A stretch of DNA of 64,000 bases from NCBI RefSeq assembly GCF_031127875.1, contig NZ_JARXIA010000008.1:1-64000 (forward strand), in the 5' to 3' direction. This document shows positions 43,725 through 64,000 of this stretch, one piece after another (positions within the stretch are counted from its first letter, which is position 1; every line of letters begins with the position of its first letter). The stretch is from Pelagicoccus sp. SDUM812005 (lineage in GTDB: Bacteria > Verrucomicrobiota > Verrucomicrobiia > Opitutales > Opitutaceae). Both the position numbers and the translations under genes were made by a program. The notes beneath the pieces are model-generated. The model worked only from the letters and a program-made list of their open reading frames with translations. It was not told the DNA's origin and searched no databases.

Positions 43725-43771
43725 AGTCTTGATGTGTTTTCCTTGGATGGTTTAACGAGGAGCCGACGAGC

Positions 43772-43793
43772 ATTGTACAATCCCCAATCGGGG
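43772..43793. promoter_or_regulatory. adjacent ATTGTACAAT palindrome and CCCC-N4-GGGG dyad
   Basis: ATTGTACAAT (43772-43781) is a 10-bp palindrome, immediately followed by CCCCAATCGGGG (43782-43793). They lie 48-69 bp before the peroxiredoxin ATG in the divergent region, where an operator would be expected. The second dyad resembles one copy of the iron-region repeat with an extra base but is not doubled. Confidence 0.4.
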
Positions 43794-43936
43794 CAAATCG
43801 AAAGTGGGCCCAATTCAGCTAAATCCGCCGGTTTTCTCGGCGAAACCGAATCACCCAAGGGTTTCGCATTAGCAGAACCGATAGCGCCCCGCCCCAAGAC
43901 CTCGCCGCAAATCCAAGCTTGACCTTCGCTCCTCTT

Positions 43937-43954
43937 ACTTTGATTGATCAAAGT
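43937..43954. promoter_or_regulatory. 18-bp perfect palindrome before a TBDT gene
   Basis: ACTTTGAT-TG-ATCAAAGT is a perfect inverted repeat ending 12 bp before the receptor ATG. Its location over the probable transcription start fits a repressor operator. The spacing between the TTGAT/ATCAA arms (2 bp) does not fit an FNR site (4 bp). Confidence 0.6.
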
Positions 43955-43966
43955 CTAGTATTTGAA

Positions 43967-49158: not shown

Positions 49159-49222
49159 AATCCCTCTCGGAGCGCCCAAAATCCCGTTCGGGGCGGATCC
49201 CTTCCGCAAATCGCCCTATAGT
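49159..49222 (+). promoter_or_regulatory. tandem 21-bp repeat A with -10 of a siderophore TBDT
   Basis: Copies AATCCCTCTCGGAGC (from 49159) and AATCCCGTTCGGGGC (from 49180) are exactly 21 bp apart. A -10-like TATAGT (49217-49222) starts 37 bp after the second copy begins, and the -35 position is poor. The expected start of transcription is near 49229, putting the copies at about -63 and -42, the layout of an activator site. The downstream gene starts at 49271. Confidence 0.75.
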
Positions 49223-49270
49223 CCGACTCCTAATCCAACGGACAAGCCTTCCCTCTGAAAGGCCCCGCAG

Positions 49271-51433
49271 ATGACAGATCCTATGAACTCAACCCAACCA
49301 TCCTCTCCCTCTCAAAACTTCGGACTTCGCGCCGCCGCTATCGCCCAGACTTTCCTCGTGGCCGGTAGCGTCAACGCCCAGTCGAACGCAGCCGTCGAAG
49401 ACACCGACGCCGTCGAGCTCGACCCCTTCGCCGTCAAGGGCGACAACTTCGCCCTCTCCTCCCCCAAGTTCACCGTCGCCCTCCGCGACACCCCTCAGAC
49501 AATCAACGTCATCCCCGAAGAAATCCTCGAAGCCCAAGGCGCCACCAGCCTACAGGACGTCCTGCGCAACTCCCCCGGCATCACCTTCCGCGCCGGCGAA
49601 GGCGGAGCCGCTCCCGGCGACAACCTCTTCGTACGCGGCTTCTCCGCAGCCAACGACATCTTCGTAAACGGCGTACGAGACCGCGGCGAGTATTCACGCG
49701 ACGCATACAACCTCGAGCAAGTCGAGGTCTCAAAAGGCCCCGCCTCCGCCACCTACGGCCGCGGCTCCACCGGAGGCTCCGTCAACCTCGTAACCAAGCA
49801 AGCCAACCTCAGCGAAACCGACACCGCTTCCCTCTCCATCGGCACCCATAACCACAAGCGCCTCGTCTTCGATTCCAATTCCGTCATCGACGGCGAAAAG
49901 GGCATCGCCTTCCGCCTCACCGGCATGGCTACCGACGAGGACGTGGCCGGACGCGACTTCGTCTACAAGAGCTCCTGGGCCCTCAACCCCAGCCTCTCCT
50001 TCGGCCTCGGCCAGGACACCCAAGTCACCCTCAGCTACGAAAAGCTCAAGCAAGACGACATGGGCGACTACGGCATGTGGACCGGCCTCTTCGGCAACCC
50101 GCTCGTCTCGTATTCAAATTTCTATGGCTACCCCGAACGCGACTTCGCAGAAGTCGACAACGACCGGGCCACCCTCTCCGTCGGACACAACTTCGCCAAC
50201 GGACTCACCCTGCGCAACGTCTCATCCTACTACACCTCCAAGTCGGACGCCATCTACACCGCCCCCGCCGGCCCCAACGACAGCACCCCCGAAGGCTACA
50301 TCCGCACCAGCGACAAGGCCAAGGACAAGTACAACGAAAACATCGCCAACCACACCACCCTCTCCGGGTCCTTCAAGGTCGGCGAACTCACCCACTCCTT
50401 CTCCACCGGACTCGAGCTCAACACAGAGACAGCGGACAACTACTCCCATAACTCCATCTCGCCCGATCCCGTCCGCAACGCCATCGATCCCTACTCCGAC
50501 GGTCCCTTCACCTTCTCTGCTGACGAACGTAGCGGTCGCGTCCGTAGCGGAACATCGGATACAGTCGCCCTCTACGCCTTCGACACCCTCTCCATCGGGG
50601 AAAAGTGGCAAGTCAACGCCGGCCTTCGCTGGGAAAGCTTCGACTCCGACTACGTCGACGCTACCGACGGAGTCGCCACCTCCGAACTCTCCCAAAAGGA
50701 AGAAATGACCAGCTACCGCTTCGGACTCGTCTACAAGCCCGTCCGCGAAGGCAGTATCTACTTCGGCGCCGGAAATTCCTTCAACCCGACCGCTGAAAAC
50801 TTCTCCCTCAGCGACAGCGAAACCTCCAGCGCCAGCCTGAACCTCGAGCCAGAAGAGACCAAAACCCTCGAGCTCGGCACCAAGTGGGACCTCTTCGAAA
50901 GCCGCGCCTCCTTCGCAGCTGCCGTATTCCAATCCGACAAAAACAACGCCCGAGCAAGCCTCGGCGGACGCGGCACCGAATACACCAACCTCGGCAAGCA
51001 AACCGTAAAAGGATTCGAGCTCGGCCTCTCCGGCAACATTACCGATCGCCTGTCAGTGTACGGTGGATACAGCCAGCTCGACACCGAGATCAAGGACTCG
51101 CCCAACCTCGACGAAGTCGGCGCCGAGCTCAGCTACTCCCCCTCCGAGTCCTTCAACCTCTGGCTCGACTACCAAGCCACCAGCAGGCTCAGCTTCGGCG
51201 GCGGAGCCAGCTACTCCGGCTCGCAAGCCTATAGCTCCACGGTCGAAGCTCCAGCCGACGCCTCCTTCTGGCTCATGGACCTCACCGCTAGCTACGTGCT
51301 CAACGAGCAGCTCTCCTTCCGCCTCAACGTCGACAACGTCGCCGACGAGAAATACATCGAGCGCGGCAGCTCCAACCGCTCCGTCCCCGGAGCCTCCCGC
51401 TCCGCCAAACTCACCGCCTACTACAAGTTCTAG
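49271..51433 (+). CDS. TonB-dependent siderophore receptor (Fiu/PiuA-like)
   Basis: A 720-residue catecholate-siderophore-type receptor. It has a signal peptide (cleaved after NAQ), the pre-plug VELDPFAVKGDNFALSS, plug motifs RDTPQTINVIPEEIL, LFVRGFSAANDIFVNGVRD and SKGPASATYGRGSTGGSVN, then the barrel, ending LTAYYKF. The Fiu/PiuA match is supported by the PiuC gene 122 bp downstream, a well-known pairing. A second ATG at 49283 is an alternative start. Its promoter holds tandem repeat A. Confidence 0.92.
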   Translation: MTDPMNSTQPSSPSQNFGLRAAAIAQTFLVAGSVNAQSNAAVEDTDAVELDPFAVKGDNFALSSPKFTVALRDTPQTINVIPEEILEAQGATSLQDVLRNSPGITFRAGEGGAAPGDNLFVRGFSAANDIFVNGVRDRGEYSRDAYNLEQVEVSKGPASATYGRGSTGGSVNLVTKQANLSETDTASLSIGTHNHKRLVFDSNSVIDGEKGIAFRLTGMATDEDVAGRDFVYKSSWALNPSLSFGLGQDTQVTLSYEKLKQDDMGDYGMWTGLFGNPLVSYSNFYGYPERDFAEVDNDRATLSVGHNFANGLTLRNVSSYYTSKSDAIYTAPAGPNDSTPEGYIRTSDKAKDKYNENIANHTTLSGSFKVGELTHSFSTGLELNTETADNYSHNSISPDPVRNAIDPYSDGPFTFSADERSGRVRSGTSDTVALYAFDTLSIGEKWQVNAGLRWESFDSDYVDATDGVATSELSQKEEMTSYRFGLVYKPVREGSIYFGAGNSFNPTAENFSLSDSETSSASLNLEPEETKTLELGTKWDLFESRASFAAAVFQSDKNNARASLGGRGTEYTNLGKQTVKGFELGLSGNITDRLSVYGGYSQLDTEIKDSPNLDEVGAELSYSPSESFNLWLDYQATSRLSFGGGASYSGSQAYSSTVEAPADASFWLMDLTASYVLNEQLSFRLNVDNVADEKYIERGSSNRSVPGASRSAKLTAYYKF

Positions 51434-51463
51434 GCTGTACAAATTCATATCTGAGAAAGCTCC

Positions 51464-51493
51464 GGGCGCCCTGATCCTTCAGGGCGCCCCTTT
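51464..51493 (+). terminator. terminator-like hairpin between receptor and piuC
   Basis: An 11-bp perfect stem (GGGCGCCCTGA / TCAGGGCGCCC) with a TCCT loop is followed by CTTT. The short U tract suggests partial read-through, so piuC may get reduced expression from the receptor promoter. Confidence 0.7.
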
Positions 51494-51554
51494 CATCCCC
51501 ACGGCTCCTCATCCTGTTCTTTAACCTGACCCGCCTCCCTACCTCCCCAACCAC

Positions 51555-52235
51555 ATGCTCATCTCCATTCCCAACCTCCTGACTCCCGAACAAGTCACCC
51601 ACTCCCGCCGCATCCTCGAAGCGGCCAACTGGGTAGACGGAAAAGCATCCGCCGGCCACCAAGGCGCCAAAGTCAAGGACAACGCCCAGCTCCTCCCGGA
51701 AGACCCCGCCGCCCAGCAAGTCGGCGACCTCATCCTCCGCGCCCTCGGCAGCAATCCCCTCTTCATGTCCGCCGCCATGCCGCTGCACATCCTGCCGCCC
51801 ATGTTCAACAGCTACTCCGGCGGCCAAACCTTCGGCACCCACGTCGACGGATCCATCCGCGTCATCCCCGGCACCCAAAAGCAAATCCGCACCGACCTCT
51901 CCTGCACCCTCTTCTTCGCCGAACCCCACGAATACGAAGGCGGAGAGCTCTGCATCGAAGACACCTACGGCACCCAACGCGTCAAGCTCCCCGCCGGCCA
52001 CGCCATCCTCTACCCCTCCACCAGCCTCCACCACGTCACCCCCGTCACCAAAGGCACCCGCCTCTGTTCCTTTTTCTGGATACAAAGCATGCTCCGCGAC
52101 GACACCCAGCGCTCCCTGCTCTTCGACATGGACCTAGCCATCCAACGCCTCGGAGCCGACCACCCCGAGCACCCCTCCAACGTCCAGCTCACCGGAGTCT
52201 ACCACAACCTCCTCCGCCAATGGGCCGAGATGTAA
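51555..52235 (+). CDS. piuC: Fe(II)/2-oxoglutarate dioxygenase, PKHD-type (PiuC/YbiX)
   Basis: A 226-residue hydroxylase of the PiuC/YbiX family. The cupin-like core carries the iron ligands H-x-D in [11 protein letters not shown] and a distal His in [13 protein letters not shown], with Arg in [12 protein letters not shown] for 2-oxoglutarate. Family length is standard (about 225). It follows a Fiu/PiuA-like receptor as in Pseudomonas and E. coli, where it is iron-regulated; its substrate is unknown. The next gene overlaps its end by 16 bp. Confidence 0.93.
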
Positions 52236-53140
52236 ACGAACCGCGCGGCCACGAGCAGCCCAACAGCGCCTACCAACGCGCCAAATCCGCCATGAACCGC
52301 GGACACAGCCTCGCCGCGTCCGCAGCTAGCGACTCCCTAGACGTCGCAATCGCCGCCTACTCCAAGGCTATCCAAATTCTCGATACGCTGCCTCGCACCT
52401 CCGAAACCGCCAACTCCCTCGGAGCCGCCCTCTCAAACCGCGGGCAACTCCGCCATCAACTCCACGGCCTCGCCCAAGCCGACCTTGCCCTAGGCGATTT
52501 CCAGCGAGCCGCAAACCTGCTCGAAAAGCTCGATGCCCCCGGCTTTCCCTGGCCCCGCCGCAACCGCGTCGGCTCCCTCATCAACCAGGCCAACCTCCTC
52601 CTCGACCTCGAGCAACACCCAGCCGCCCTCCAAGCCGCGAACACCGCCATCGAAGCCAATCGCTTCGAACGCCTCGCCGATCCCACCGACACCGAGCTAG
52701 CCGTCCTCGCCGCCCGCGCCTACTGCGACGCCGCCGGACAGCTGCTTCCCACCCTCCCCGCCCACGAGCAAGAACCCCTCGCCCAGCAAGCCGGATTCCA
52801 CCTGCAAACAGCCCTCGTCCACATCCGAGCCCTTCGTCCTTACCTCAACCAAGAACCCTTCGCCGAAGCGAGCAAACGCCTCTTCCACTTCGGTTGCCTC
52901 CTCTTCGCTACCCACTGCCCCGAGAACCTTCCCGCCCTAATCGTCAGCCACTTCCAAAACCTCCAAGACGAATCCATTCGTATCCACCTTATCGAAACCG
53001 CTCGCGAAGCCATAAAGAGCGCCATCACTCAAATCAGCCTCGCTGCCCGCAACGCCGGCACCACCCCACAGGAGCAAGACCAGCTCGCCGCCCTTTCCCA
53101 ACAACTCGGAGAGCTCCACCAAGAGCTCCCCACCCTCTAG
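52220..53140 (+). CDS. TPR-like helical repeat protein linked to piuC
   Basis: A 306-residue all-helical, Ala/Leu-rich protein. Segments such as [30 protein letters not shown] and [22 protein letters not shown] look like degenerate tetratricopeptide repeats. It has no signal peptide. The ATG at 52220 overlaps piuC; an internal Met at 52292 is an alternative start. In Pseudomonas a Sel1/TPR-type gene also follows piuC (from memory), which supports a linked role. The function is unknown. Confidence 0.7.
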
Positions 53141-53497
53141 AACCGAACAACAATACCAGGCAACAGCCCATCCCAACCCGCCTAGAAAGGCCGCAAGCTC
53201 CGCAAAGGATTCAACTCGTTCATAACGTTCACCCACCGTCATCGCCACCTGCATCCTTAACGGCATCCTCGACGACCACTCGCGCCCCCCAGCGCAAATC
53301 CGCTCCCGCTAGCCGGTAGGCGCAGGAGTCACGACGGCACCCTGCGCCAACTACCGACTCTTAAAAATCCCGCTCGGAGCATTCGGAATCCCTGACGGGG
53401 CGGCAAGCCAGCCTCCCTTTCTGCTATCCTCCCGCCACGTGGAAGCCTGCGCGCGCCAGCGACGCCGGCCCCACGCAAACCCAAACCGGATACAGAA
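53141..53497. other. 357-bp intergenic region before the second siderophore TBDT
   Basis: The left 200 bp show no convincing gene or hairpin. The right part holds tandem repeat B and a -10-like hexamer (53366-53430), then a 67-bp leader to the receptor ATG at 53498. Confidence 0.55.
53366..53430 (+). promoter_or_regulatory. tandem 21-bp repeat B with -10 of the second siderophore TBDT
   Basis: Copies AATCCCGCTCGGAGC (from 53366) and AATCCCTGACGGGGC (from 53387) are exactly 21 bp apart. TATCCT (53425-53430) begins 38 bp after the second copy starts, one base off from the other three sites. Confidence 0.7.
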
Positions 53498-55657
53498 ATG
53501 AACTACCTGAATACTCTCCTCGCAGGAAGCGCCCTCGGCCTCGCCGCCGCCAGCGCCCAAAACAGCGTCGATACGCCCGTCACCGGCGACCAAGCCTTCG
53601 AGCTCAGCGGTTTCACCGTCTTCGGCGACCACTACGATTCCATCGGCGCCGCCACTCGCCTCCCCCTCTCCGACCGCGAAACGCCCCAAACGATCAGCCT
53701 GATCGACAGCTCCCGCCTCGAAGCGGAATCCATGTACAACATGGACGACGTCATGCGCAACGTCACCGGCGTCAACGTATCCATGTACGACACGCAACGC
53801 CCGCTCTACTTCTCCCGCGGCTTCCAGATCACCGACTTCCAAGTCGACGGCATCCCCACCTACAGCGGCGACACCAACCAGGAATTCGACACCGCCCTCT
53901 ACCAACGCGTAGAAATCCTCCGCGGCGCCAACGGCCTCTTCAGCGGCTCCGGCAAGCCCTCCGGCACCGTTAACCTCCACCGCAAGCAAGCGGGCAAAAC
54001 CTTCGCCGCCTCCGTCACCCAAACCGTCGGCTCCTGGGACTACTTCCGCACCCAAGTGGACGTGAACGCCCCCATCACCGCGGACGGCAAATTCCGTAGC
54101 CGCTTCGTCGCCGCCCTCACCGACCGCGACAGCTTCCGCGACCGCTACCACGAGGACAAGCTCGCCTACCTCGCCACCTTCTCCGCCGACCTCGCCGAAA
54201 ACTCCACCCTCACCTTCGGCTTCCAACGCCAAGATAACGAGCCCACCGCCTCCGTCTGGGGCACCATCCCGCCCCTCGCGGCCGATGGTACCCCCTCCGA
54301 GCTTCCGCACACCACCAACTTCGCTACCGACTGGGCCTACTGGCACCGTCACTCCAGCACCGCCTTCGTCAATCTCGAGCACGCCCTCAACGAGCGCTGG
54401 CAACTCAAGGCCGCCGTCAACCACACCACCGGCGACGAAGAAAGCCTCAGCACCTACGCCAACGCCTACGCCGCCACTTGGCTCAACAAGGACGACGGTT
54501 CCGGCGTCATCATCACCGGCTACTCCTGGGACAGCTCCGACGAACGCAACAGCCTCGACCTCTACCTCAACGGCAAGTTCGACCTCTTCGAGCGCGAGCA
54601 CGACATCGTCTTCGGCGCCAGCCACGCCGACTACGAAAGCGTAGCCCTCAACACCGCGTCCGGCTTCTCCGGCACTCCCTGGAACTTCGCTATCGACAAC
54701 TTCTATACCTGGGACGGCAGCGCCGAGCCCGCCATGGAACTCGCCTACCTCCCCGGCCAAGGCGTCGTCCGCACCAAGCAAACCGGCCTCTACTCCTCCA
54801 CCCGCCTCCGCCTCACCGAGGCCTTCTCCGCCATCCTCGGCGGCCGTATCACGAAATGGGATACCATCGACTACGCCCGCGACGATACCGGTGCAACCGC
54901 GTATCTGAACAGCCAATACGAGATCGAAAACGAGTTCACCCCCTACGTCGGCTTTACCTACGACCTCAATCAAAACCTCACCTTCTACGGCAGCTACACC
55001 ACCATCTTCGAACCGCAGGACAGCGTGGACGCGCTCGGAAACATCCTCGATCCCGTCCAAGGCAACAACTACGAGATCGGCCTCAAGTCCAGCTTCGCCG
55101 AAGGCCGCGCCACCTTTACCGCTGCCCTCTTCCAAACCGAGCAAGACAACTTCGCCGTCGCCGACCCGCTCAACCCCGATCCCCTCGAAAGCGGCAAGTT
55201 CCCCAGCATCGGAGTCGACGGCACCAAGGCCGAAGGCCTCGAGCTGCAGCTCAGCGGCAAGGTCACCGACGACTGGTCCATGATTTTTGGATACACCCAT
55301 AACGATACCAGCCGCCACGAAGGCGACCCCATCTGGACCAACCTTCCCGACGACCTCGTGCAGCTCTCCACCCACTACCAGTTCCCCGGCGAGTGGAGCC
55401 GCCTCGCCATCGGCGGCGGAGCCACCTGGCAAAGCGAGATCATCGGCAGCCAATACATCCCCGGCCAAGGAAACGTAGAGATCAGCCAAGGCGCCTACAC
55501 CCTGCTCAACTTCCACCTCAACTACGCCATCAACGAACGATTCTCCGCCACCCTCAGCGCCAAGAACGCCCTCGACGAAATCTACCTCGCCAACCTCGAC
55601 TACCCGCAATTCGGCGAGCCGCGCAACCTGCTGCTCTCCCTCAAGTGGAAGTACTAG
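53498..55657 (+). CDS. TonB-dependent siderophore receptor (FhuE/FpvA-like)
   Basis: A 719-residue ferric-siderophore receptor. It has a signal peptide (AAASAQ), a short pre-plug (FELSGFTVFGDHYDS), plug motifs RETPQTISLIDSSRL, LYFSRGFQITDFQVDGIPT and LRGANGLFSGSGKPSGTVN, then a barrel ending LSLKWKY. The RGF..T..QVDG..T pattern is typical of FhuE/FoxA/FpvA hydroxamate-type receptors. It has no signalling N-terminal extension, so it does not directly drive an anti-sigma factor. It forms a unit with the PepSY gene after a hairpin. Confidence 0.92.
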   Translation: MNYLNTLLAGSALGLAAASAQNSVDTPVTGDQAFELSGFTVFGDHYDSIGAATRLPLSDRETPQTISLIDSSRLEAESMYNMDDVMRNVTGVNVSMYDTQRPLYFSRGFQITDFQVDGIPTYSGDTNQEFDTALYQRVEILRGANGLFSGSGKPSGTVNLHRKQAGKTFAASVTQTVGSWDYFRTQVDVNAPITADGKFRSRFVAALTDRDSFRDRYHEDKLAYLATFSADLAENSTLTFGFQRQDNEPTASVWGTIPPLAADGTPSELPHTTNFATDWAYWHRHSSTAFVNLEHALNERWQLKAAVNHTTGDEESLSTYANAYAATWLNKDDGSGVIITGYSWDSSDERNSLDLYLNGKFDLFEREHDIVFGASHADYESVALNTASGFSGTPWNFAIDNFYTWDGSAEPAMELAYLPGQGVVRTKQTGLYSSTRLRLTEAFSAILGGRITKWDTIDYARDDTGATAYLNSQYEIENEFTPYVGFTYDLNQNLTFYGSYTTIFEPQDSVDALGNILDPVQGNNYEIGLKSSFAEGRATFTAALFQTEQDNFAVADPLNPDPLESGKFPSIGVDGTKAEGLELQLSGKVTDDWSMIFGYTHNDTSRHEGDPIWTNLPDDLVQLSTHYQFPGEWSRLAIGGGATWQSEIIGSQYIPGQGNVEISQGAYTLLNFHLNYAINERFSATLSAKNALDEIYLANLDYPQFGEPRNLLLSLKWKY

Positions 55658-55682
55658 CCCTCTCGCGACACCTTCATTGATC

Positions 55683-55717
55683 AAAAAAAGTCCACCCGCG
55701 TCCTCCGCGGGTGGACT
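55683..55717. terminator. terminator-like hairpin between receptor and PepSY gene
   Basis: A 12-bp perfect stem (AGTCCACCCGCG at 55689-55700, CGCGGGTGGACT at 55706-55717) has an A run on the left and only CTTCT on the right. On the plus strand it would be a leaky stop; it could lower expression of the PepSY gene starting at 55738. Confidence 0.6.
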
Positions 55718-55737
55718 CTTCTGTATTCCGAAAACGC

Positions 55738-56835
55738 ATGAAAAAAAGAATCTGGAAACTCCATTCCTGGATCGGCCTCTGTTGCGCCCTCGCCCTCACA
55801 GTCATCGGACTCACCGGCAGCGTGCTCGTCTTCCACCAGGAAATCTCCGACGCCCTCGCCCCCGAGACCACCCTCAACCAAAACTACAGCCCGGACGTCC
55901 AACGCCTCCCCGTCAGCCAGCTCACCCAAACGGTCGAGTCAAAGTTCCCCAACTTCTGGATACGCGGCTGGCTCTTCAACCACCAGTCCCCCCACCGCGA
56001 CAAAGCCTACCTCATGGAACGCGGCGGAGACGAGTGGCACATCCTCTACGTCGACCCCTACACCGGCGAAACCGCCGAGCGCCCCTACGGCTACAACGAA
56101 ACCCTCTACGGCTGGTTCGTCAATCTGCACTACACCTTCTTCGCCGACCACTTCGGCATGGCCATCGCCGGCATCTTCGCCCTCGGCTTCCTCTTCTTAG
56201 CGATCACCGGCATCTACCTGCACCGCCCCTTCTTCAAAAACCTCCTCAAGCTCCGCTGGGGCGCCAGCGCCCGCATCTTCTGCTCCGACCTCCACAAGGC
56301 CATCGGCATCGCCACCATTCCCATGAACCTCATCTTCGGGATCACCGGCGCCTACTGGAACATCAGCCACGTACTGCACGACCTCATCGAGCACGACCAC
56401 GAGGACGAGCACGCCAACGCCAGCGAATATCCCGGCCGGGCCGACCAGCTCGACGCGCTCGCTTCCATCGCGGACCACAGCATCCCCGGCTACTCCCTCA
56501 ACTACATCTACTTCCCCACCGCAGAAGATCCCACCTTCTACCTCTACGGCCAACACCCCGGCGCCGGCGTCCTCAACAGCCCCTACGGCAGCTCCGTCTG
56601 GGTCAAAGCCGAGAGCGGCGAGGTCACCCATTCCTCCGACCTCAGCCAAGCGGGCTTCTGGGCCCAAGTCCTCGACTCCTTCGAACCCCTGCACTTCGGC
56701 AGCTTCGCCGGCCTCGGCTCGCAAGTCCTCTGGTGCCTCGCCGGACTCAGCCCCGCCGCCCTCTCCCTCACCGGCACCATCATGTTCTTCAAGCGCGGCC
56801 GCCGCAAAAAGAAGCGCATACCACCGCAAGGCTGA
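55738..56835 (+). CDS. PepSY-associated membrane protein (PiuB-like iron-regulated)
   Basis: A 365-residue inner-membrane protein of the PepSY_TM/PiuB family. The ATG at 55738 begins MKKRIWKLHSWIGL, the family signature before TM1. Further helices lie near 148-170, 195-215 and 335-355, with a periplasmic domain between. A His/Asp/Glu cluster (LHDLIEHDHEDEHAN) follows the third helix and may bind metal or heme. PiuB-type proteins are thought to reduce or release iron from imported ferric siderophores. It is the second gene behind the FhuE/FpvA-like receptor, which supports this. Confidence 0.85.
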   Translation: MKKRIWKLHSWIGLCCALALTVIGLTGSVLVFHQEISDALAPETTLNQNYSPDVQRLPVSQLTQTVESKFPNFWIRGWLFNHQSPHRDKAYLMERGGDEWHILYVDPYTGETAERPYGYNETLYGWFVNLHYTFFADHFGMAIAGIFALGFLFLAITGIYLHRPFFKNLLKLRWGASARIFCSDLHKAIGIATIPMNLIFGITGAYWNISHVLHDLIEHDHEDEHANASEYPGRADQLDALASIADHSIPGYSLNYIYFPTAEDPTFYLYGQHPGAGVLNSPYGSSVWVKAESGEVTHSSDLSQAGFWAQVLDSFEPLHFGSFAGLGSQVLWCLAGLSPAALSLTGTIMFFKRGRRKKKRIPPQG

Positions 56836-56860
56836 AACCAAACGAAGATCCCAGCTTCAC

Positions 56861-56888
56861 GGCGTCCCCCCAAAAGGGACGCCTTTTT
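56861..56888 (+). terminator. Rho-independent terminator after the PepSY gene
   Basis: An 8-bp stem (GGCGTCCC / GGGACGCC) with a 7-base loop is followed by TTTTT. Confidence 0.9.
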
Positions 56889-56914
56889 CGCGCCCGCACC
56901 TCGCCCTTTCGCCG

Positions 56915-56999
56915 AAATTTCGAGCCGCGCCTATTTATTCAAGGCCAGTTGCCAGGTAATGCCCCTAGGAAGGGGCAAATTCGGCTAAATTTCGGGCCG
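56915..56999. repeat. direct repeat and hairpin upstream of the RedB-like gene
   Basis: AAATTTCGAGCCG (56915-56927) recurs as AAATTTCGGGCCG (56987-56999), 72 bp apart. Between them GCCCCT-AGGA-AGGGGC (56961-56976) forms a small dyad. They lie 100-190 bp before the redB-like ATG. The role is unknown. Confidence 0.4.
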
Positions 57000-57104
57000 T
57001 AGACACCGATTCCAAAAACCCGGGGAGGCCTTGTTTCGACGACATCCGTCAAGCTACTGAGCGCCAAAAAGTAGGCATGCCTAGCCGGACAAGAACGCCA
57101 CGTC

Positions 57105-57719
57105 ATGACCGAAGAATCGAAGAGGAAACCCAAGAGCGCCCTGCTGCTCGTCGCCACCCTGTGGCTCGGAGGCATCGGAGCCGGCTCCCTCGCGCTTTTG
57201 GACCATGAATTCGCCGCCGGCCAGCCCAACGAAGCCCCCGTCGCCCTTCCCGCGCAACTCGCCCCCTTCGCTTCCCCCCAAAAACCGCTCACCCTCTTCA
57301 TGGCCGTACACCCGGATTGCCCCTGCACCGGCGCCAGCCTCGAACAAGTCGACCGCCTCATCGCCCGCAACCCCGACTCCATCCAAGTCGTCGGCCTCGT
57401 TCGCAGCGCTCCCGACGCCGAGCTGCGCGACAACAGCTACTGGAAACGCCTGCAAGCCATGCCCCACGCCCGCGCCGTGGCCGACATCGACGGCGAACTC
57501 GCCTCCCTGCTCGGCACCCACGTCTCCGGAGCCACCATCGCCTACGATCCCGACGGCCACCTCCGCTTCCAAGGCGGCATGACCGCATCCCGAGGACACG
57601 CCGGCCCCAGCCGCGGCATGGACGACCTCGAAGCCATCGCCCGCCAGCTCGCCCCACTCGACCTTTGCTCAACGCCGACCTTCGGCTGTTCCCTCGAGAA
57701 CGCCTCAGACCTTCTCTAA
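57105..57719 (+). CDS. RedB-like membrane-anchored thioredoxin-fold protein
   Basis: A 204-residue protein with an N-terminal anchor (ALLLVATLWLGGIGAGSLALL, residues 12-32) and a periplasmic thioredoxin-like domain. The redox centre is Cys72-Pro-Cys74 in HPDCPCTGASLEQ. The C-terminal part keeps FQGGMTASRGHAG and STPTFGCSLE with a further Cys pair. This matches proteins named RedB in Planctomycetota. The kinase gene begins at the very next base after the stop codon, so the two are expected to act together, perhaps as redox sensor and transducer. Confidence 0.8.
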   Translation: MTEESKRKPKSALLLVATLWLGGIGAGSLALLDHEFAAGQPNEAPVALPAQLAPFASPQKPLTLFMAVHPDCPCTGASLEQVDRLIARNPDSIQVVGLVRSAPDAELRDNSYWKRLQAMPHARAVADIDGELASLLGTHVSGATIAYDPDGHLRFQGGMTASRGHAGPSRGMDDLEAIARQLAPLDLCSTPTFGCSLENASDLL

Positions 57720-60482
57720 ATGCCAGACCTGCACTCTCTAGACAAACAGATCGACGCCCAAGCGAGCGTCATCTTCCGAACCCAGCATTCGAAGATCCTG
57801 CAAAGGACCGACCGCTGGTTCTCCAAGCTCATGATCGCCCAATGGATCGGGGGCATCATTGCGGCCCTCATCTTCACGCCGCTTGAATGGACCGGCGACA
57901 TCAGCGCCATCCATATCAACGTATGGGCAGCCATCTTCCTCGGCGGAGCCATTGCCAGCCTCCCCGTCTACCTCAGCTACACCCGCCCCGGCGAGACCGC
58001 CACCCGCCACGTCATCGCCGTTTCCCAGGCCCTCTTCTCCGCCCTGCTCATCCACCTCACCGGCGGCCGACTCGAGACCCACTTCCACGTATTCGGCTCC
58101 CTCGCCTTCCTCAGCTTCTACCGCGACTGGCGCGTCATCGCCTCCGCCACCCTCATCATCGCCCTCGACCACTTCATACGCGGCGTCTGGTGGCCGAGCT
58201 CCGTATTCGGCATCCTCACCTCCTCCCCCTGGCGCTGGGTCGAGCACGCAGCATGGGTCATCTTCGAAGACATCTTCATCGTTCGCAACTGCATCGAAAG
58301 CATCCGCGAAATGAAAGTCCAGGCGCGCCAGCAAGCCGAGCTGGAAAACGCTCACCTGCGCACCGAACGCATCGTCCTCGAACGCACCTCCCAACTGCGC
58401 CAAAGCCAGAAACGATTCTCCAACATCGTAAACCATATCAACGGCATCGTCTGGGAAGCCGACCCGCACAGCTTCCATTTCAGCTTCGTCAGCAAGCAAG
58501 CCGAACGCATCGCCGGCTACCCCCTCCAGGAATGGACCGAAAACCCAAGCTTCTGGAAGGACCACCTCCACCCCGACGACAAGGAGCGAATCCTCAACCT
58601 CTGCCAAAAGCGCACCGCCCACGGCGAGTCCCACGATTTCGAATACAGGATACTCACCCAGGACGGCAGCTACGTCTGGCTGCACGATCTCGTGACCGTC
58701 GAAACCAACGAAGCCGGCGAACCTATCCTCCTGCGCGGCGTCATGATCGATATCGACGACCGCAAGCAAAGCGAAGCCGAACTCCGCGCCGCCAAGGAAG
58801 CCGTCGAAGAAGCCAACGCCCTGCTCGTCGAATCCCTCAACGAATCCAAACGCCTCGAAAAGGAAGCCCAGTCCGCCAACATCGCCAAGAGCAAGTTCCT
58901 CGCCACCATGAGCCACGAGATCCGTACCCCCATGAACGGTGTCATCGGCTTCACCAACCTCCTGCTCGAATCCCCCCTCGACGAAGAACAACAGGAATTC
59001 GCCACCTCCATCCAAAACTCGAGCCAAGTCCTGCTCAATATCATCAACGACATCCTCGACATCTCCAAGATCGAAGCCGGCAAGCTCGTCGTCGAAAACA
59101 TCGACTACGACCTCAGCCAAGCCATCGACGACGTCGCCATGCTCCTCTCCCCCGCCGCCGAGACCAAAGGTGTCGAGCTCGCCGTCAAGTTCGAGAAAGA
59201 CTTTTGTCCAAAGGTCGTAGGCGACCCCGGTCGTATCCGACAAGTCATTACAAACATCGCCAACAACGCCATCAAGTTCACCGACGAAGGACACGTCTTC
59301 CTCCGCATAGAAACCGACTCCTCGGATTCCAGCAAAATACGTATCGAAATCGAAGATACCGGAATCGGAATAACCCCCGAACAACAAAAGCAGCTCTTCA
59401 CCAGCTTCAACCAAGCCGACTCCTCCACCACCCGCCGCTACGGCGGCACCGGCCTCGGGCTCGCCATCTCCAAGCACCTCGTAAACCTCATGGGAGGCAA
59501 CATCGGCATGCGCAGCTCCGTCGGCGCGGGATCCACCTTCTGGTTCACCATCCCCAAAAACGCCACGCCACAAGAGATCGCCCCCATCGAATTGCCGAGC
59601 GAACTCCAAAAACGCCGCGTCCTCGTCGTCGACGACCACGAAATCAACCGCAACCTGCTGCGCGACCAATTGCAGGACTGGGCGATCGAGGCCAGCACCG
59701 CCGCCACCGGCAAGCAAGCCCTCGACAGCCTTCTCCAAGCCACAGCCGAAGGGCGCCCCTTCGACATCGCCATCCTCGACTACCTGCTGCCCGACATGGA
59801 CTGCAACCAGCTTCGCGAACGTATCCAGTCAAACCCTACCATCCCCACACCGCTCCTCGTCGCCCTCGGCTCCACCGCCTACCGAGTGCAGATCAAGGCC
59901 TTGCTCGAAAGCGGATTCCAGTCGCACCTCTTCAAGCCACTCATCCGCCCCCGCTTGCTCGCCCAAGCCCTCACCACCGCGACCGCGACACCTCCGCAGG
60001 GCAAAGTCACCAAAACCACCGAACGCCGGGCCGATACCAAACCGAGAAGCATCGCCCAGGACGACACCCCTAAAGCTTACACGGTTCTGCTCGCGGAAGA
60101 CCATCCCGTGAACCAAAAGCTGGCCATGCGACTCCTCAATAAAATCGATTGCCAGGTCGACATCGCCAACAACGGAATCGAAGCCGTCGAAAAAGCCTCC
60201 CGCCACCGCTACGATGCCATCTTCATGGACTGCCAAATGCCCGAAATGGGCGGACTGGAAGCCACCCGAAAGATCCGCGAAATCGAAAGCCAGCGACGCC
60301 TCGACGACACCGAGGGACGCTCCCGCATCCCCATCATCGCCATCACCGCTGGCGCCATGGAAGGAGACCGGGAGATCTGCGTGCAGTCCGGCATGGACGA
60401 CTACCTCACCAAGCCCCTGAAAACGAGCTCCCTAAAAGCAGCCGTCGAACGCTGGTGCAAGGCTCGCTCCGGTAAAAACTAA
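57720..60482 (+). CDS. hybrid histidine kinase with a His-rich membrane sensor, partner of RedB-like
   Basis: A 920-residue kinase. The first 190 residues form about five membrane helices with conserved-looking His112, His121, His123 and His151 (IHLTGGRLETHFHVFG, ALDHFIRGVWW). A PAS/PAC domain (about 232-350), HisKA with His399 (ATMSHEIRTPM), HATPase_c (to about 615), a first receiver (about 630-745, Asp in AILDYLLPDM) and a second receiver (about 785-910, Asp in FMDCQMPEM) follow. It starts directly after the redB-like stop. No DNA-binding output is attached or adjacent. Confidence 0.9.
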   Translation: MPDLHSLDKQIDAQASVIFRTQHSKILQRTDRWFSKLMIAQWIGGIIAALIFTPLEWTGDISAIHINVWAAIFLGGAIASLPVYLSYTRPGETATRHVIAVSQALFSALLIHLTGGRLETHFHVFGSLAFLSFYRDWRVIASATLIIALDHFIRGVWWPSSVFGILTSSPWRWVEHAAWVIFEDIFIVRNCIESIREMKVQARQQAELENAHLRTERIVLERTSQLRQSQKRFSNIVNHINGIVWEADPHSFHFSFVSKQAERIAGYPLQEWTENPSFWKDHLHPDDKERILNLCQKRTAHGESHDFEYRILTQDGSYVWLHDLVTVETNEAGEPILLRGVMIDIDDRKQSEAELRAAKEAVEEANALLVESLNESKRLEKEAQSANIAKSKFLATMSHEIRTPMNGVIGFTNLLLESPLDEEQQEFATSIQNSSQVLLNIINDILDISKIEAGKLVVENIDYDLSQAIDDVAMLLSPAAETKGVELAVKFEKDFCPKVVGDPGRIRQVITNIANNAIKFTDEGHVFLRIETDSSDSSKIRIEIEDTGIGITPEQQKQLFTSFNQADSSTTRRYGGTGLGLAISKHLVNLMGGNIGMRSSVGAGSTFWFTIPKNATPQEIAPIELPSELQKRRVLVVDDHEINRNLLRDQLQDWAIEASTAATGKQALDSLLQATAEGRPFDIAILDYLLPDMDCNQLRERIQSNPTIPTPLLVALGSTAYRVQIKALLESGFQSHLFKPLIRPRLLAQALTTATATPPQGKVTKTTERRADTKPRSIAQDDTPKAYTVLLAEDHPVNQKLAMRLLNKIDCQVDIANNGIEAVEKASRHRYDAIFMDCQMPEMGGLEATRKIREIESQRRLDDTEGRSRIPIIAITAGAMEGDREICVQSGMDDYLTKPLKTSSLKAAVERWCKARSGKN

Positions 60483-60511
60483 CGCCAGGGTCGCCTCTAG
60501 GCTGCTCCCCA

Positions 60512-60575
60512 AATCCCGCTCGGGGTCGCAAAAATCCGTCGCGGAGTAGCGACGGATCAGGCTTTCCGCTAGGAT
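60512..60575 (+). promoter_or_regulatory. tandem 21-bp repeat C with -10 of the unknown operon
   Basis: Copies AATCCCGCTCGGGGT (from 60512) and AATCCGTCGCGGAGT (from 60533) are exactly 21 bp apart. TAGGAT (60570-60575) begins 37 bp after the second copy starts. With a 6-bp spacer, transcription would begin at the ATG itself (60582). Confidence 0.65.
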
Positions 60576-60581
60576 CCACCC

Positions 60582-60902
60582 ATGATCCAGCCACTCGATA
60601 CCCAAGGGGTATCCGCCTCGCGAATACACTGCAGCATCAAGGCGGAGAAATCCTCCCTCGCCCACGAAATCAGGAAGATCGCCCAATACTGCGCCATCGA
60701 CTTGAAGCTCTCCTCCCCGCTCGCCATCAGCGAAGACCTCGGCGCCAAGCCCCACGTCATCCTCACCGTCGATATCGAGTCCGCTCTCGCCCACCAAGCG
60801 GTCTGGCGCCTCGCCGGACGCATCGCCTCCTTCTGCCCCCAAGCCAGGGTCAGCACCCAAATCCTGCCCTCCGAGCAATTCAAGAAGATCGAGTCCGCAT
60901 GA
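60582..60902 (+). CDS. hypothetical protein, first gene of a repeat-C operon
   Basis: A 106-residue soluble protein, mixed alpha/beta, not recognised. It contains AHEIRKIAQYCAIDLKLSS and HVILTVDIESALAHQA. It has no signal peptide. Its stop overlaps the ATG of the next gene (ATGA, 60899-60902), so the two are translationally coupled. There is no room for a ribosome site if the predicted promoter is right, which suggests a leaderless message. Confidence 0.7.
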   Translation: MIQPLDTQGVSASRIHCSIKAEKSSLAHEIRKIAQYCAIDLKLSSPLAISEDLGAKPHVILTVDIESALAHQAVWRLAGRIASFCPQARVSTQILPSEQFKKIESA

Positions 60903-61744
60903 ACCGACTACTCTCCCCGCAAACGCCTAGCCAATCCCCCGCCCTCTGCCTTCGCACCCATTCCGACGGCACCATCCCGCTAAACTGTTCGCCCCTGGAC
61001 CTCTTCAACCAAGCCGCTCCACGCTTCGATAACCTCTACCTGCAAAGCAAACACGACTTCGCCCGGCTCGTAGCCATCATCGAGCCACCCACCCTCGACT
61101 GGGTCGAAATCGGAAGCTTCGCCTACTCGCCAGACCATCGCTTCATTCTCCACCCCGCCGCAACCAGCCAACTCCTCTCCCGCGTGCAACACTGCGACTG
61201 CTGCGGCAGCCCCGGACGCGTCGAACTTCGCAACGAGCACGGCCAAGAGCGCCTCCAACTCTGCGCCCCCAACCAAATCCCCGCCTACCAGTGGGGACGC
61301 TACGTGCAAGCCCTCTCCCAAACGAAAATGCCTGTCCCTGCGACCGGCACACCCCGCCCCTTTCCCCGTATCCCCGGCAACACTACGGAGCTTCCCTTCC
61401 ACCCCTTCCTGCTAGCCACCCTCCTGAGCCTGCTCAGCGACCAAGGCCGCAGCGTCGAAGTCACCCTCGTCAACGAAGTCTCCAGCAACCGACGGCCCCT
61501 CAAGCCGGATATCGTCGAAGTCGAGGACACCCTGCTCACCTGCAGCTCCCCGCTCAGCTCCCTCCAGCTCGATCTCGCCGCCGTCGAAAAGCTAAGCCTC
61601 GCCCTCACCGCTAAAGGCGCCCCTCAGCTCTACGCTTCCGGCCCCGACCGCTCCCAACTCCTGCTCCTCGAAGCAGCCGACACCCCAGAAGACCGCCGCG
61701 CCCTCACCGACATCCTCCATGATCACATACCCGAACTCATCTAA
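60899..61744 (+). CDS. hypothetical protein with a CDCCG motif in the iron/heme operon
   Basis: A 281-residue cytoplasmic protein. A Cys cluster QHCDCCGSPGRVEL sits near residue 100, and the C-terminal third (about 205-275) contains VEVEDTLLTCSSPLSSLQLD and LTAKGAPQLYASGPDRSQL. Distant similarity to ChuX/HmuS-type hemin-handling proteins crossed my mind because of that C-terminal shape and the heme receptor downstream, but no heme-binding signature is clear. It is coupled to the preceding gene by an ATGA overlap. Confidence 0.7.
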   Translation: MNRLLSPQTPSQSPALCLRTHSDGTIPLNCSPLDLFNQAAPRFDNLYLQSKHDFARLVAIIEPPTLDWVEIGSFAYSPDHRFILHPAATSQLLSRVQHCDCCGSPGRVELRNEHGQERLQLCAPNQIPAYQWGRYVQALSQTKMPVPATGTPRPFPRIPGNTTELPFHPFLLATLLSLLSDQGRSVEVTLVNEVSSNRRPLKPDIVEVEDTLLTCSSPLSSLQLDLAAVEKLSLALTAKGAPQLYASGPDRSQLLLLEAADTPEDRRALTDILHDHIPELI

Positions 61745-61757
61745 GCCCAGCCCCGCC

Positions 61758-61853
61758 GTGACCCGAAAACAAGCCGACCTCGCCCGCAGCGCCCTCTGCA
61801 TCATCGGCCCGCTCTGCCTCCTGCTCGCCTTCATCCTGCTCGTCCACAGCTAA
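61758..61853 (+). CDS. 31-residue single-span membrane peptide
   Basis: A GTG-started frame encoding MTRKQADLARS and then a hydrophobic helix (ALCIIGPLCLLLAFILLV) ending in HS and TAA. It begins 13 bp after the preceding stop and 28 of its 31 codons end in G or C, as in the genes around it. Positive residues precede the helix. No family was recognised; it is too short to be found by standard gene callers. Confidence 0.6.
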   Translation: MTRKQADLARSALCIIGPLCLLLAFILLVHS

Positions 61854-61939
61854 GGGCACGGTCCCCCTCCGCCTACCCATTCGAATTGACTCGCCGCCGC
61901 CCTTGCCCCCTTCAATGGAAGCAGAACCACGCGACCGCC

Positions 61940-62590
61940 ATGCAAGACGATTCGAACTACCAAGCCCTCGCCCAAATTCTCCGCCAGCGCCGGACCACCA
62001 AAGCCATGGCCGACGCCCCCTGGCCCCCAAGCGACCCCGCCCCCGCCGCCATCGAAAAAATCCTCGCCGCCGCCACCGAAGCCCCCTTCCACAAGCCCGC
62101 AGCCCGCGAAAACCGCTCCGGAGCGCTAGCCGGCATCCAACCCTGGCGCTGCTACGTCCTCGACTCGGAAAACTGCCGCAAGCTCCGCCAGCTTCTCATC
62201 GAGCAAGGCGACAATACCAAGATCCCCCAAATGCTCGCCGTCGCCGATTACCTGATACAAGTCACCTGGCTCCCCAACCCCGCCGCCGAGCCCAGCGACG
62301 CCCTCTTCGAACCGAGTATCCAAAACATGGAACACATCGCAGCCGCGTCCGCCGCGATCCAAAACATGCTGCTCGCCGCCACCACCCTCGAATTCCCCAA
62401 CTACTGGTCCAGCGGCGGCGCCCTCCGCTCCGCCGAAACCTTCAGCCTGCTCGGCATCCCCCCGACCGAGATCCTCCTCGGCTCCCTCTTTCTCTTCCCG
62501 CAAGACCTCGCCGACGCCACCACCAAAGCCGGCGGACTCCGCCACTCCCGTAGCCCCCACCAAGACTGGGCCCGCTACGTGACCTTGTAA
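61940..62590 (+). CDS. nitroreductase-family (FMN) protein
   Basis: A 216-residue protein of the nitroreductase fold. The FMN-binding start RQRRTTKAMADAP, APFHKPAARENR, IQPWRCYVLDSE and IAAASAAIQNMLLAATTLEF, and the GIPPTEILLGSLFLF end, follow the family order. I chose the ATG at 61940 because family members start a few residues before RRT/RRS. It probably reduces a substrate with NAD(P)H. Its place in an operon before a heme-type receptor suggests a role in iron or heme release. Confidence 0.8.
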   Translation: MQDDSNYQALAQILRQRRTTKAMADAPWPPSDPAPAAIEKILAAATEAPFHKPAARENRSGALAGIQPWRCYVLDSENCRKLRQLLIEQGDNTKIPQMLAVADYLIQVTWLPNPAAEPSDALFEPSIQNMEHIAAASAAIQNMLLAATTLEFPNYWSSGGALRSAETFSLLGIPPTEILLGSLFLFPQDLADATTKAGGLRHSRSPHQDWARYVTL

Positions 62591-62620
62591 TGCCGGTCGC
62601 CCCGACGCCTCGTCTAAAAT

Positions 62621-62684
62621 AATCCCTCTCGGGGCGCGATAAATCCTGCTCGGGGCTGAGGCGTCGACCGATTTTCGCCATAGT
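62621..62684 (+). promoter_or_regulatory. tandem 21-bp repeat D with -10 of the heme-type TBDT
   Basis: Copies AATCCCTCTCGGGGC (from 62621) and AATCCTGCTCGGGGC (from 62642) are exactly 21 bp apart. CATAGT (62679-62684) starts 37 bp after the second copy begins. The expected transcript start is near 62691, 14 bp before the ATG at 62705. Confidence 0.75.
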
Positions 62685-62704: not shown

Positions 62705-64000
62705 ATGGCAAAAATCATGACTACCCAGCAAACTTTCAACTCTCTCGCGACCGCCCTAGGATTCCTCGGCGCCACGACCCTTTCCTTCGCCCAAAGCGAA
62801 GTCAGCGCCTCCGAGGACGTCATCGACCTCGCCCCCTTCGTGGTATCCGGAGAAACCTACGCCTTCGGCGCCCAAAAGATCGTCCACGTCACCGACAAGG
62901 ACCTAGAGCGCCTGCAGGCCGTCGACCTCGCCGACATCTTCTCCCAAGACCCCTCCATCATGGTGGGCGGAGGCATCTCCGCTGCTGAAAAAATCTACGT
63001 GCGCGGCATCGAGGACAAGATGCTCAACGTCTCCGTCGACGGAGCCACCCAAGCTGGCTACCTCTCCCACCACCAAGCCCAGTACTCCATCGAGCCCGAA
63101 CTGCTCAAGTTCGCCGAAGCCGAGCCTGGGGCCGGAGCGGCTTCCGCCGGACCGGGCGCCCTCGCCGGCGTGATCCGCTTCGAAAACAAAGGCGCCGCCG
63201 ACTTCCTCGAAGGCGACGACACCTTCGGCTCCTTCGCCAAAGTCAGCTACGGCAGCAACGGCGACCAGCTCAAGCTCACCGGAGCCCTATACGGAAACGT
63301 CAACTCCACCCTCTCCGCCCTCTTCGCCTACACGTATTCAGAATCCAACGACTATAAGGACGGCAACGGCGACACCGTGGAACTCACCAGCAGCGACACC
63401 GACCGCGCCTTCCTCAAGCTCGACGCCCAGATCGACGCCAACCAGACGCTCGACTTCAGCTTCGAAGACCGCAGCAACGAAGGTACCTTCCGCCACCGAC
63501 CTAACTTCTACGGCGACTTCAACCACCCTCGGGCCCCGAACGATCCCGTCTTCATGACCTTCGACCGCCAAACCGCCACCCTCGGCTACGGCTACGTCGC
63601 CTCCGATCGCAACCTGGACCTCCAGGCCAAGCTCTACCACACCGACAACAGCGTCGACCGCGCCGACCAATACGAGATGGGCTACGAAAGCCTCGGCTTC
63701 GACCTCTCCAACACCGCCGCCTACAGCGACCACACCGTCAACTACGGACTCAACTACCGCGACGACACTGCCTACTTCACCGGCAAGGGCCAAACAACTC
63801 TCCGCCCTCCCTTCTCCAGCTTCCTCCCACCGCTCGTCTACACCACCATCCCAGACGAGACCATCGAGATCCTCGGCTTCTTCGCCCAAGACGAATGGCA
63901 AGTCACCGACAGGCTCCAAGCTTCCTTCGGTATCCGCTGGGACGAATACGAATACAGCGACAAGGACGGCCAAACCTTCAAGGACTCCGGCTTCTCTCCC
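62705..64000 (+). CDS. TonB-dependent heme/hemoglobin-type receptor (partial, runs off the end)
   Basis: The first 432 residues of an outer-membrane receptor, open to the window edge. It has a signal peptide (cleaved after SFAQ), pre-plug EDVIDLAPFVVSGE, then LADIFSQDPSIMVGGG, KIYVRGIEDKMLNVSVDGATQAG and the PGALAGVIRFENKGAADFL block, typical of HutA/HmuR-like heme or hemoglobin receptors. ATG codons at 62705 and 62717 are both possible; the first is nearer the expected transcript start. It has its own promoter (repeat D) behind the nitroreductase gene. Confidence 0.85.
   Translation, partial: MAKIMTTQQTFNSLATALGFLGATTLSFAQSEVSASEDVIDLAPFVVSGETYAFGAQKIVHVTDKDLERLQAVDLADIFSQDPSIMVGGGISAAEKIYVRGIEDKMLNVSVDGATQAGYLSHHQAQYSIEPELLKFAEAEPGAGAASAGPGALAGVIRFENKGAADFLEGDDTFGSFAKVSYGSNGDQLKLTGALYGNVNSTLSALFAYTYSESNDYKDGNGDTVELTSSDTDRAFLKLDAQIDANQTLDFSFEDRSNEGTFRHRPNFYGDFNHPRAPNDPVFMTFDRQTATLGYGYVASDRNLDLQAKLYHTDNSVDRADQYEMGYESLGFDLSNTAAYSDHTVNYGLNYRDDTAYFTGKGQTTLRPPFSSFLPPLVYTTIPDETIEILGFFAQDEWQVTDRLQASFGIRWDEYEYSDKDGQTFKDSGFSP

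Follow-up and report, generated by a model that had tools for sequence, protein, structure and literature searches.

The first 64,000 bases of a 256-kb contig (C107) in the 6.65-Mb genome of Pelagicoccus sp. SDUM812005 (hereafter the window) hold four tandem pairs of a 15-base unit, each with a 21-bp period and each just before genes for iron or heme uptake; two more pairs follow past the window, the last of them beside the gene for a 310-amino-acid (aa) regulator. We conclude, with a probability of about 0.87, that this tandem repeat is the operator of the cluster-encoded regulator, which would be an AraC/XylS-family activator switching on the iron and heme uptake genes. The eight copies had been noticed in an earlier sequence-only reading of the window, and a mismatch check recovered all four 21-bp pairs exactly where that reading had put them, with mismatches to AATCCCKCTCGGRGC in the two copies of 0 and 1 (pair 1), 0 and 2 (pair 2), 1 and 3 (pair 3), and 0 and 1 (pair 4). 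The pairs and the regulator gene are:

49159-49194, plus strand: candidate operator pair 1 (copies 49159-49173 and 49180-49194), with a -35-like element at 49194-49199 and a -10 TATAGT at 49217-49222
53366-53401, plus strand: candidate operator pair 2 (copies 53366-53380 and 53387-53401), with a -10 TATCCT at 53425-53430
60512-60547, plus strand: candidate operator pair 3 (copies 60512-60526 and 60533-60547), with a -10 TAGGAT at 60570-60575
62621-62656, plus strand: candidate operator pair 4 (copies 62621-62635 and 62642-62656), with a -10 CATAGT at 62679-62684
C107:66012-66047: pair 5, beyond the window
C107:69480-70412 (L013:6480-7412): AraC-family regulator, 310 aa, its gene just before pair 6
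C107:70438-70473: pair 6, beyond the window

The single 15-mer is not enriched in the window (at up to three mismatches, 17 matches against a shuffle mean of 13.3, standard deviation 3.6). The pair pattern AATCCN4CGGRGN7AATCCN4CGGRG has four exact matches there, and 40 simulated windows (first-order Markov) gave none even at up to two mismatches. Over the whole genome this pattern matched six times at up to one mismatch, once at two and five times at three, its reversed control not at all at up to three. A second form of the pattern gave eight genome matches at up to two mismatches and six more at exactly three, with one match of its control; these six, and the single match of the reversed control, look like noise. 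The eight genome pairs are the six on C107 (starting at 49159, 53366, 60512, 62621, 66012 and 70438), clustered within 22 kb, and two weaker ones on another contig, C31, at 886557 (plus strand) and 892354 (minus strand). A pair precedes only 5 of the 93 Plug-domain matches of this genome and so does not mark receptor promoters in general; given this count and the total of eight pairs at up to two mismatches, the regulon found is small, and no large genome-wide one was seen.

Each pair in the window precedes an iron or heme unit, as had been read from the sequence: the TonB-dependent transporter (TBDT) genes starting at 49271, 53498 and 62705, and the operon starting at 60582. The companion statement, that no such pair stands at any other promoter of the window, also held. 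The fifth receptor of the window (TBDT 43967) is without a pair; its upstream region, 43700-43970, has a single degenerate unit-like stretch, making it a natural negative control. The internal symmetry proposed for the unit (CCC-N4-GGG) is not supported: the unit lacks symmetry and is repeated in direct orientation. The four window sites have no inverted repeat in common, and a palindromic operator was rejected on that ground.

For comparison with relatives we fetched 40 blocks (778.5 kb) around pattern matches or the araC gene in 17 genomes carrying an orthologue of the regulator, covering 77 of the 80 pattern matches in orthologue genomes. With 53 seed pairs as its training set, a matrix for the single unit gave 217 matches in the blocks. 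Same-strand neighbors at most 80 bp apart were spaced by 21 bp 88 times, by 29 bp once and by 50 bp once; this spacing test is partly circular because the training units were taken from 21-bp pairs, though the 53 seeds became 88 pairs. None of 90 pairs lay wholly inside a called gene, though 80% of the sequence was coding according to our simple gene caller. Open-frame length, considered as a sign of chance matches, proved useless, since real sites also fall in long open frames in this GC-rich DNA.

Alignment of the 78 highest-scoring pairs with their promoters showed ATCC at positions 2-5 and 23-26 and GGRGY at 11-15 and 32-36 to be almost invariant, in part a product of how the set was built. 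The second copy, unlike the first, is followed by R-G-A at positions 37-39 (G38 in 77 of 78, A39 in 52 of 78); position 38 lies inside the matrix, position 39 outside it. There is little signal between position 39 and a TA...T at 59-64 (T59 in 48, A60 in 63 and T64 in 62 of the 78), which also lies outside the matrix, and the best -10 hexamer begins 22 or 23 bp past the repeat at 53 of the 78 sites. If the spacer is taken as 17 bp, the -35 reads Y-R-G-A-n-n: its first base is also the final base of the second copy, and of TTGACA it retains the G and A. The aligned sites have a -35 TRGAnn at 36-41 and a -10 TAnnnT at 59-64, with the proximal half-site abutting the -35. The units and promoter elements are conserved, the spacer and flanks of the pairs are not. 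As judged from sequence, this degenerate -35/-10 arrangement is the class II activation geometry of AraC/XylS proteins; in XylS and AraC, too, the proximal half-site touches the -35.

Repressors also bind at sites that abut the -35, and an AraC protein might therefore bind here and repress, its site overlapping and blocking the promoter, or might need a partner. We regard this as very improbable, because the -35 is poor (TRGA only) and the -10 good, as in activator-dependent promoters, and because most members of the AraC family whose tandem sites lie upstream of the -35 act as activators. A cyanobacterial relative by kind, IutR, likewise activates (PMC11221513).

The proposed activator has a C-terminal double helix-turn-helix (HTH) region (Pfam HTH_18 at 84.6 bits, cut-off 33.6; HTH_AraC at 38.9 bits, cut-off 26.6) that matches solved AraC-type domains in the PDB (3oio, TMt 0.86). 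The N-terminal domain of its model is beta-rich and matches AraC, BgaR and other cupin-like domains (E about 1e-5); full-length PDB matches to ToxT, CsvR and Rns had low TM-scores. Among the best 25 of the 31 NCBIfam AraC-type families (AraC, AndR, Btr, RhrA etc.) matched at E 0.001, the protein fell below every named equivalog cut-off, with AndR best at 55 bits against 350. It is 77% identical to its counterpart in Pelagicoccus sp. SDUM812002 and 63% to that in P. mobilis, and its gene adjoins TBDT genes of iron uptake.

Two direct half-sites repeating every 21 bp are also found in the XylS and MekR sites (PMC4514859). The system described here resembles XylS/Pm, MekR and AraC at araI1-I2 in combining a double C-terminal HTH with two direct half-sites at a 21-bp period, and differs from XylS, MekR and AraC in its half-site (AATCC-N5-GGRGY), sensor domain, iron and heme targets, and Verrucomicrobiota host. 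In Synechocystis PCC 6803, the PchR-like AraC-family protein IutR is encoded beside TBDT genes, binds their promoters and is needed for their induction under iron deficiency; PchR of Pseudomonas aeruginosa is an AraC-type regulator of siderophore uptake whose effector is the siderophore (PMC11221513 and PMC3672683, respectively). The likeness of IutR to our 310-aa regulator is one of gene setting and kind of target, and that of PchR one of AraC type and siderophore uptake; both are likenesses of description rather than of protein sequence, IutR motif or PchR-box. In the open-access literature, which was our scope to the exclusion of regulon databases, we found no AraC-type iron regulator and no such operator described for Verrucomicrobiota. 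The sequence-only reading had predicted an iron or heme regulon under an unrecognised operator; the regulon is supported and the operator sequence is, to our knowledge, new, but with a strong candidate reader of the AraC family encoded just past the window its layout belongs to a recognised class, the tandem half-sites of AraC/XylS proteins. An AraC/XylS activator with a tandem operator at siderophore and heme genes is a kind already known, and the particular regulator/operator pair is new.

We infer the following mechanism. Each of two protomers would occupy one of the directly repeated 15-bp half-sites, which lie two helical turns apart, its first HTH reading AATCC and its second GGRGY. The protomer nearer the promoter would abut the degenerate -35 (TRGAnn, 17 bp before TAnnnT) and recruit sigma-70 RNA polymerase in class II fashion, thereby activating rather than repressing the siderophore and heme receptors, PepSY proteins, a HemS-like heme protein and the ferritin operon and, in relatives, also TonB-system genes and the fumarase FumC. 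The inducer may be iron limitation, or an imported ferri-siderophore or heme.

The genes that follow the pairs were collected both genome-wide and in sister species, the two checks that the sequence-only reading had proposed; downstream genes in the own genome were iron or heme genes, and relatives keep the pair before the same kinds of gene. The first same-strand called gene after the 90 pairs, at any distance, was a TBDT in 46 cases, ferritin in 7, PepSY-like in 4, HemS-like in 3, and the 106-aa protein described below, a nitroreductase or PepSY_TM in 2 each, with 3 pairs at the end of their stretch and 21 followed by unlabelled genes. Its start lay within 450 bp of the pair in 75 of the 90 cases and within 300 bp in 61, 41 of these before TBDTs. 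The unlabelled genes comprise 18 distinct ones, 16 of which were scanned with Pfam (the other two are 2.0 and 5.7 kb away). This added three more TBDTs, DUF3450 twice, DUF6607 twice, FumC (two sites), FecR (674 bp away), cation efflux (two sites), porin O/P and a match-less 109-aa protein, besides the genes named below as having no obvious iron link. DUF3450 genes form part of TonB-system operons, and FumC is an iron-free, iron-sparing fumarase. In Puniceicoccaceae bacterium K14 (G008:C65, L098 45990-46147), two pairs stand before a FumC-type fumarase, and one pair stands divergently before a receptor; the position before the fumarase suggests that iron-sparing metabolism may belong to the regulon.

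Several of the cluster receptors and PepSY_TM genes are paralogues, and the pairs could in principle have no function and simply have been dispersed or duplicated together with the promoters of paralogous receptors. This we consider extremely unlikely: only the units and promoter elements are conserved, with spacer and flanks variable, the pairs keep a fixed register to the -10, and pairs occur across genera before unrelated genes (the HemS-like operon, the ferritin operon, DUF3450 and FumC). Register and conservation contradict it, and we rejected it.

Co-occurrence ties the pairs to the 310-aa regulator. In a survey of 200 genomes of the family, including the own genome, by AraC protein search and pair search at up to two mismatches, an orthologue was found in 18 (E 9e-205 to 9e-37); the next match, at E 2e-27, covers the HTH part only. 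All 12 genomes with at least three pairs carry the orthologue, against 6 of the remaining 188 (Fisher 3e-15, a figure that overstates independence since the genomes share ancestry), as do 14 of the 17 family genomes with at least two pairs. The three others (G030, G094 and G143) have two matches each, and all six fall below the matrix threshold of 14, as do the unfetched matches in orthologue genomes (two in G158, one in G063); the highest score among these nine is 7.8. In a class sample of 286 genomes, searched with a stricter pattern, at least two pairs were found in three, all with the orthologue, and one match each in four others. Past the araC gene, 13 of the 17 orthologue genomes with fetched stretches have a pair within 1.7 kb, six of them within 61 bp.

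Several observations weigh against the regulator/operator assignment. The orthologue is present without a pair at up to two mismatches in G137, G153 and G192, and with one pair in G101; the G192 assembly is 85% complete and its orthologue gene is cut by a contig end, and a de novo search of the stretches fetched from G137 and G153 turned up no 21-bp repeat. The araC gene of G008 sits on a contig stretch without a pair. Some pairs stand before genes without an obvious iron link, namely cellulase (two sites), sigma-54 (789 bp away), an EF-hand protein and an FMN dehydrogenase. Finally, both the matrix and the blocks were built from pattern matches, so that unit conservation and spacing are partly circular. 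The genomes with an orthologue and no pair or a single one, the separation of pairs and araC gene on different fetched stretches in G008, and the many AraC-family candidates in the genome (61 in a first look) would all suit a different reader, with the linked AraC gene a mere passenger of the cluster. We hold this to be improbable, because every genome with at least three pairs (12 of 12) has the linked orthologue, no excess of pairs was found without it (in the class sample, all 3 of the 286 genomes with at least two pairs have it), half-sites of this size in tandem at 21 bp suit a protein with two HTH motifs, and AATCC pairs are again found next to related regulators outside the phylum (see below).

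The genes of the iron cluster in the window are:

49271-51433, plus strand: TonB-dependent siderophore receptor (best NCBIfam match Fiu, below cut-off; above cut-off for TonB-siderophor)
51555-52235, plus strand: PKHD-type Fe2+-dependent dioxygenase, YbiX/PiuC-like, the next gene after receptor 49271
53498-55657, plus strand: TonB-dependent siderophore receptor (best matches FauA and FhuE; above cut-off for TonB-siderophor)
55738-56835, plus strand: PepSY_TM protein, after receptor 53498 on the same strand
60582-60902, plus strand: 106-aa protein without a Pfam or NCBIfam match, recurrent in the putative regulon
60899-61744, plus strand: 281-aa Cys-rich protein with a HemS/PhuS/ChuS fold in its predicted model
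61886-62590, plus strand: nitroreductase-family protein (start at 61886 or 61940)
62705-64000 (gene ends at C107:64726), plus strand: heme-type TonB-dependent receptor (best match TonB-hemin, below cut-off)

A protein without a Pfam match follows the PKHD dioxygenase in cluster order, and a 204-aa protein without a match lies between the PepSY_TM protein and a hybrid histidine kinase (57720-60482; PAS, HisKA and two receivers) for which the scanned genes offer no DNA-binding partner. The presence of this kinase inside the cluster raises the alternative that a phosphorelay response regulator, perhaps acting with it, binds the tandem sites. That seems to us hardly credible, since the kinase has receiver domains and no Pfam DNA-binding domain, and no DNA-binding response regulator was found among the scanned cluster genes (49-71 kb).

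Past the window, receptor 62705 is followed by PepSY_TM, a second heme-type receptor with PepSY_TM, the AraC-family regulator and pair 6; both heme-type labels are best matches below cut-off. After pair 6 come a 55-aa Cys-rich protein (C107:70580-70747) and ferritin. This small protein (CxxC plus further Cys, no Pfam match) is found in 14 of 17 genomes, mostly right after araC, and one copy among the 14 has a stop in the alignment. The pairs on C31 precede a TBDT (best NCBIfam match CfrA, below cut-off) and an operon of PepSY_TM_like_2, DUF2271 and DUF4198. At pair 3, the ATG at 60582 follows the -10 TAGGAT by six bases, and the 106-aa gene or first gene has a distance of about 6-8 bases in G158, G144, G008, G012, G120 and G078; with so short a distance the transcript looks leaderless, and conservedly so.

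The 281-aa protein of this operon gave an AlphaFold2 model (pLDDT 87.9, pTM 0.85) whose top nine PDB matches by Foldseek are HemS, PhuS and ChuS (E 7e-14, TMq 0.71). On the strength of this match, pair 3 seems to drive a heme-handling operon. The predicted fold is alike, with identity of only about 10-12%; Pfam gave no match at E 0.001 for the protein, nor at 0.1 for two homologues. Cys 99, 101, 102 and 122 are invariant, and such cysteines are not known for HemS. The protein is a candidate new branch of heme-handling proteins. Shared control suggests functions for this and other unknowns: the 55-aa Cys protein, DUF6607 and DUF3450.

Cysteines also mark the sensor domain of the regulator. All 16 alignment rows keep the Cys of an N-terminal CPF stretch ('CLF' or 'CAF' in two). 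The sensor region contains a CxxC at 21 of 26 loci (L121-L146), accompanied at 16 of the 21 by an E/DPC cysteine; L121-L124 retain nothing beyond CPF and SPC, and L141 has neither. The CxxC, often as ACxxCxQR, recurs in the sensor regions of L125-L146 and is absent in the four Pelagicoccus-type loci. The Cys16-Cys202 region of the regulator model is of low confidence. These cysteines hint at metal sensing, and the conserved set could coordinate iron, zinc or an Fe-S cluster. A candidate AraC-type iron regulator for Verrucomicrobiota, with operator, promoter geometry and target list, is directly testable.

More distant relatives came from a scan of genome contigs (best 80 of 381), picked by peptides in or next to HTH1; HTH1 conservation is therefore built in, and HTH2 is unselected. 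They include 61 distant loci (L140-L200), mainly of Bacteroidota, Paenibacillus, cyanobacteria, desulfobacterial lineages, and other Opitutales or Pontiellaceae, with L153/L155 and L180/L200 near-duplicates. Their intergenic DNA (140 kb) contains 15 copies of AATCC-N16-AATCC, spread over 13 loci, where AATCC repeats at the other 50 distances average 0.54 with a maximum of 3 (Poisson 4e-17 for 15); inside genes the count is 2 against 4.7. Of intergenic control words at 21 bp, TTGAC and GATCC gave 0 and ATTCC 4 against 0.38, so the 21-bp excess is not confined to AATCC. Four of 17 AATCC pairs stand before a TBDT and two before an AraC gene, one is inside a gene, and the others precede an unlabelled gene or lie far from a start. 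No AATCC pair was found in 12 short loci (L034-L045, about 3.3 kb each) of AraC relatives without the LNEFKLK helix, nor at three short order-level loci (L205-L207, one with LNEFKLK).

The NPSH core of HTH2 falls from 93-100% in the near set to 29-52% in the 17 repeat-bearing loci, where AATCC stays and GGRGY is mostly lost. From this parallel divergence of HTH2 core and GGRGY, with AATCC staying, we infer that HTH1 reads AATCC and HTH2 the second box. A wider proposal is that one operator code is shared by a cross-phylum AraC clade (Verrucomicrobiota, Bacteroidota and cyanobacteria), with HTH1 (LNEFKLK) on AATCC in 21-bp tandem and HTH2 co-diverging with the second box, and that the cysteine set found in the sensor domain of Opitutales relatives (CPF, CxxC, E/DPC; reduced to CPF plus SPC in Pelagicoccus) would directly sense iron, Fe-S or heme, making the activator, not Fur, the primary iron sensor; this we offer as speculative and, on balance, doubtful. 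Genome-wide counts of AATCCG-N15-AATCCG in 36 distant genomes (31 with a match, mostly few each) are not clearly above chance and neither support nor refute the cross-phylum claim, which rests on the regulator loci. The high counts in the two Mucilaginibacter genomes of L186 and L190 (37 and 14 pattern matches) are caused by a dispersed, near-identical repeat, AATCCGAAATCGAAN..., which is present tens of times per genome and mimics the pair. AATCC-21-AATCC beside related regulators could help to find iron regulons in many little-studied bacteria, and at the cyanobacterial loci L152, L165 and L166 a 21-bp repeat lies near an AraC/TBDT pair.

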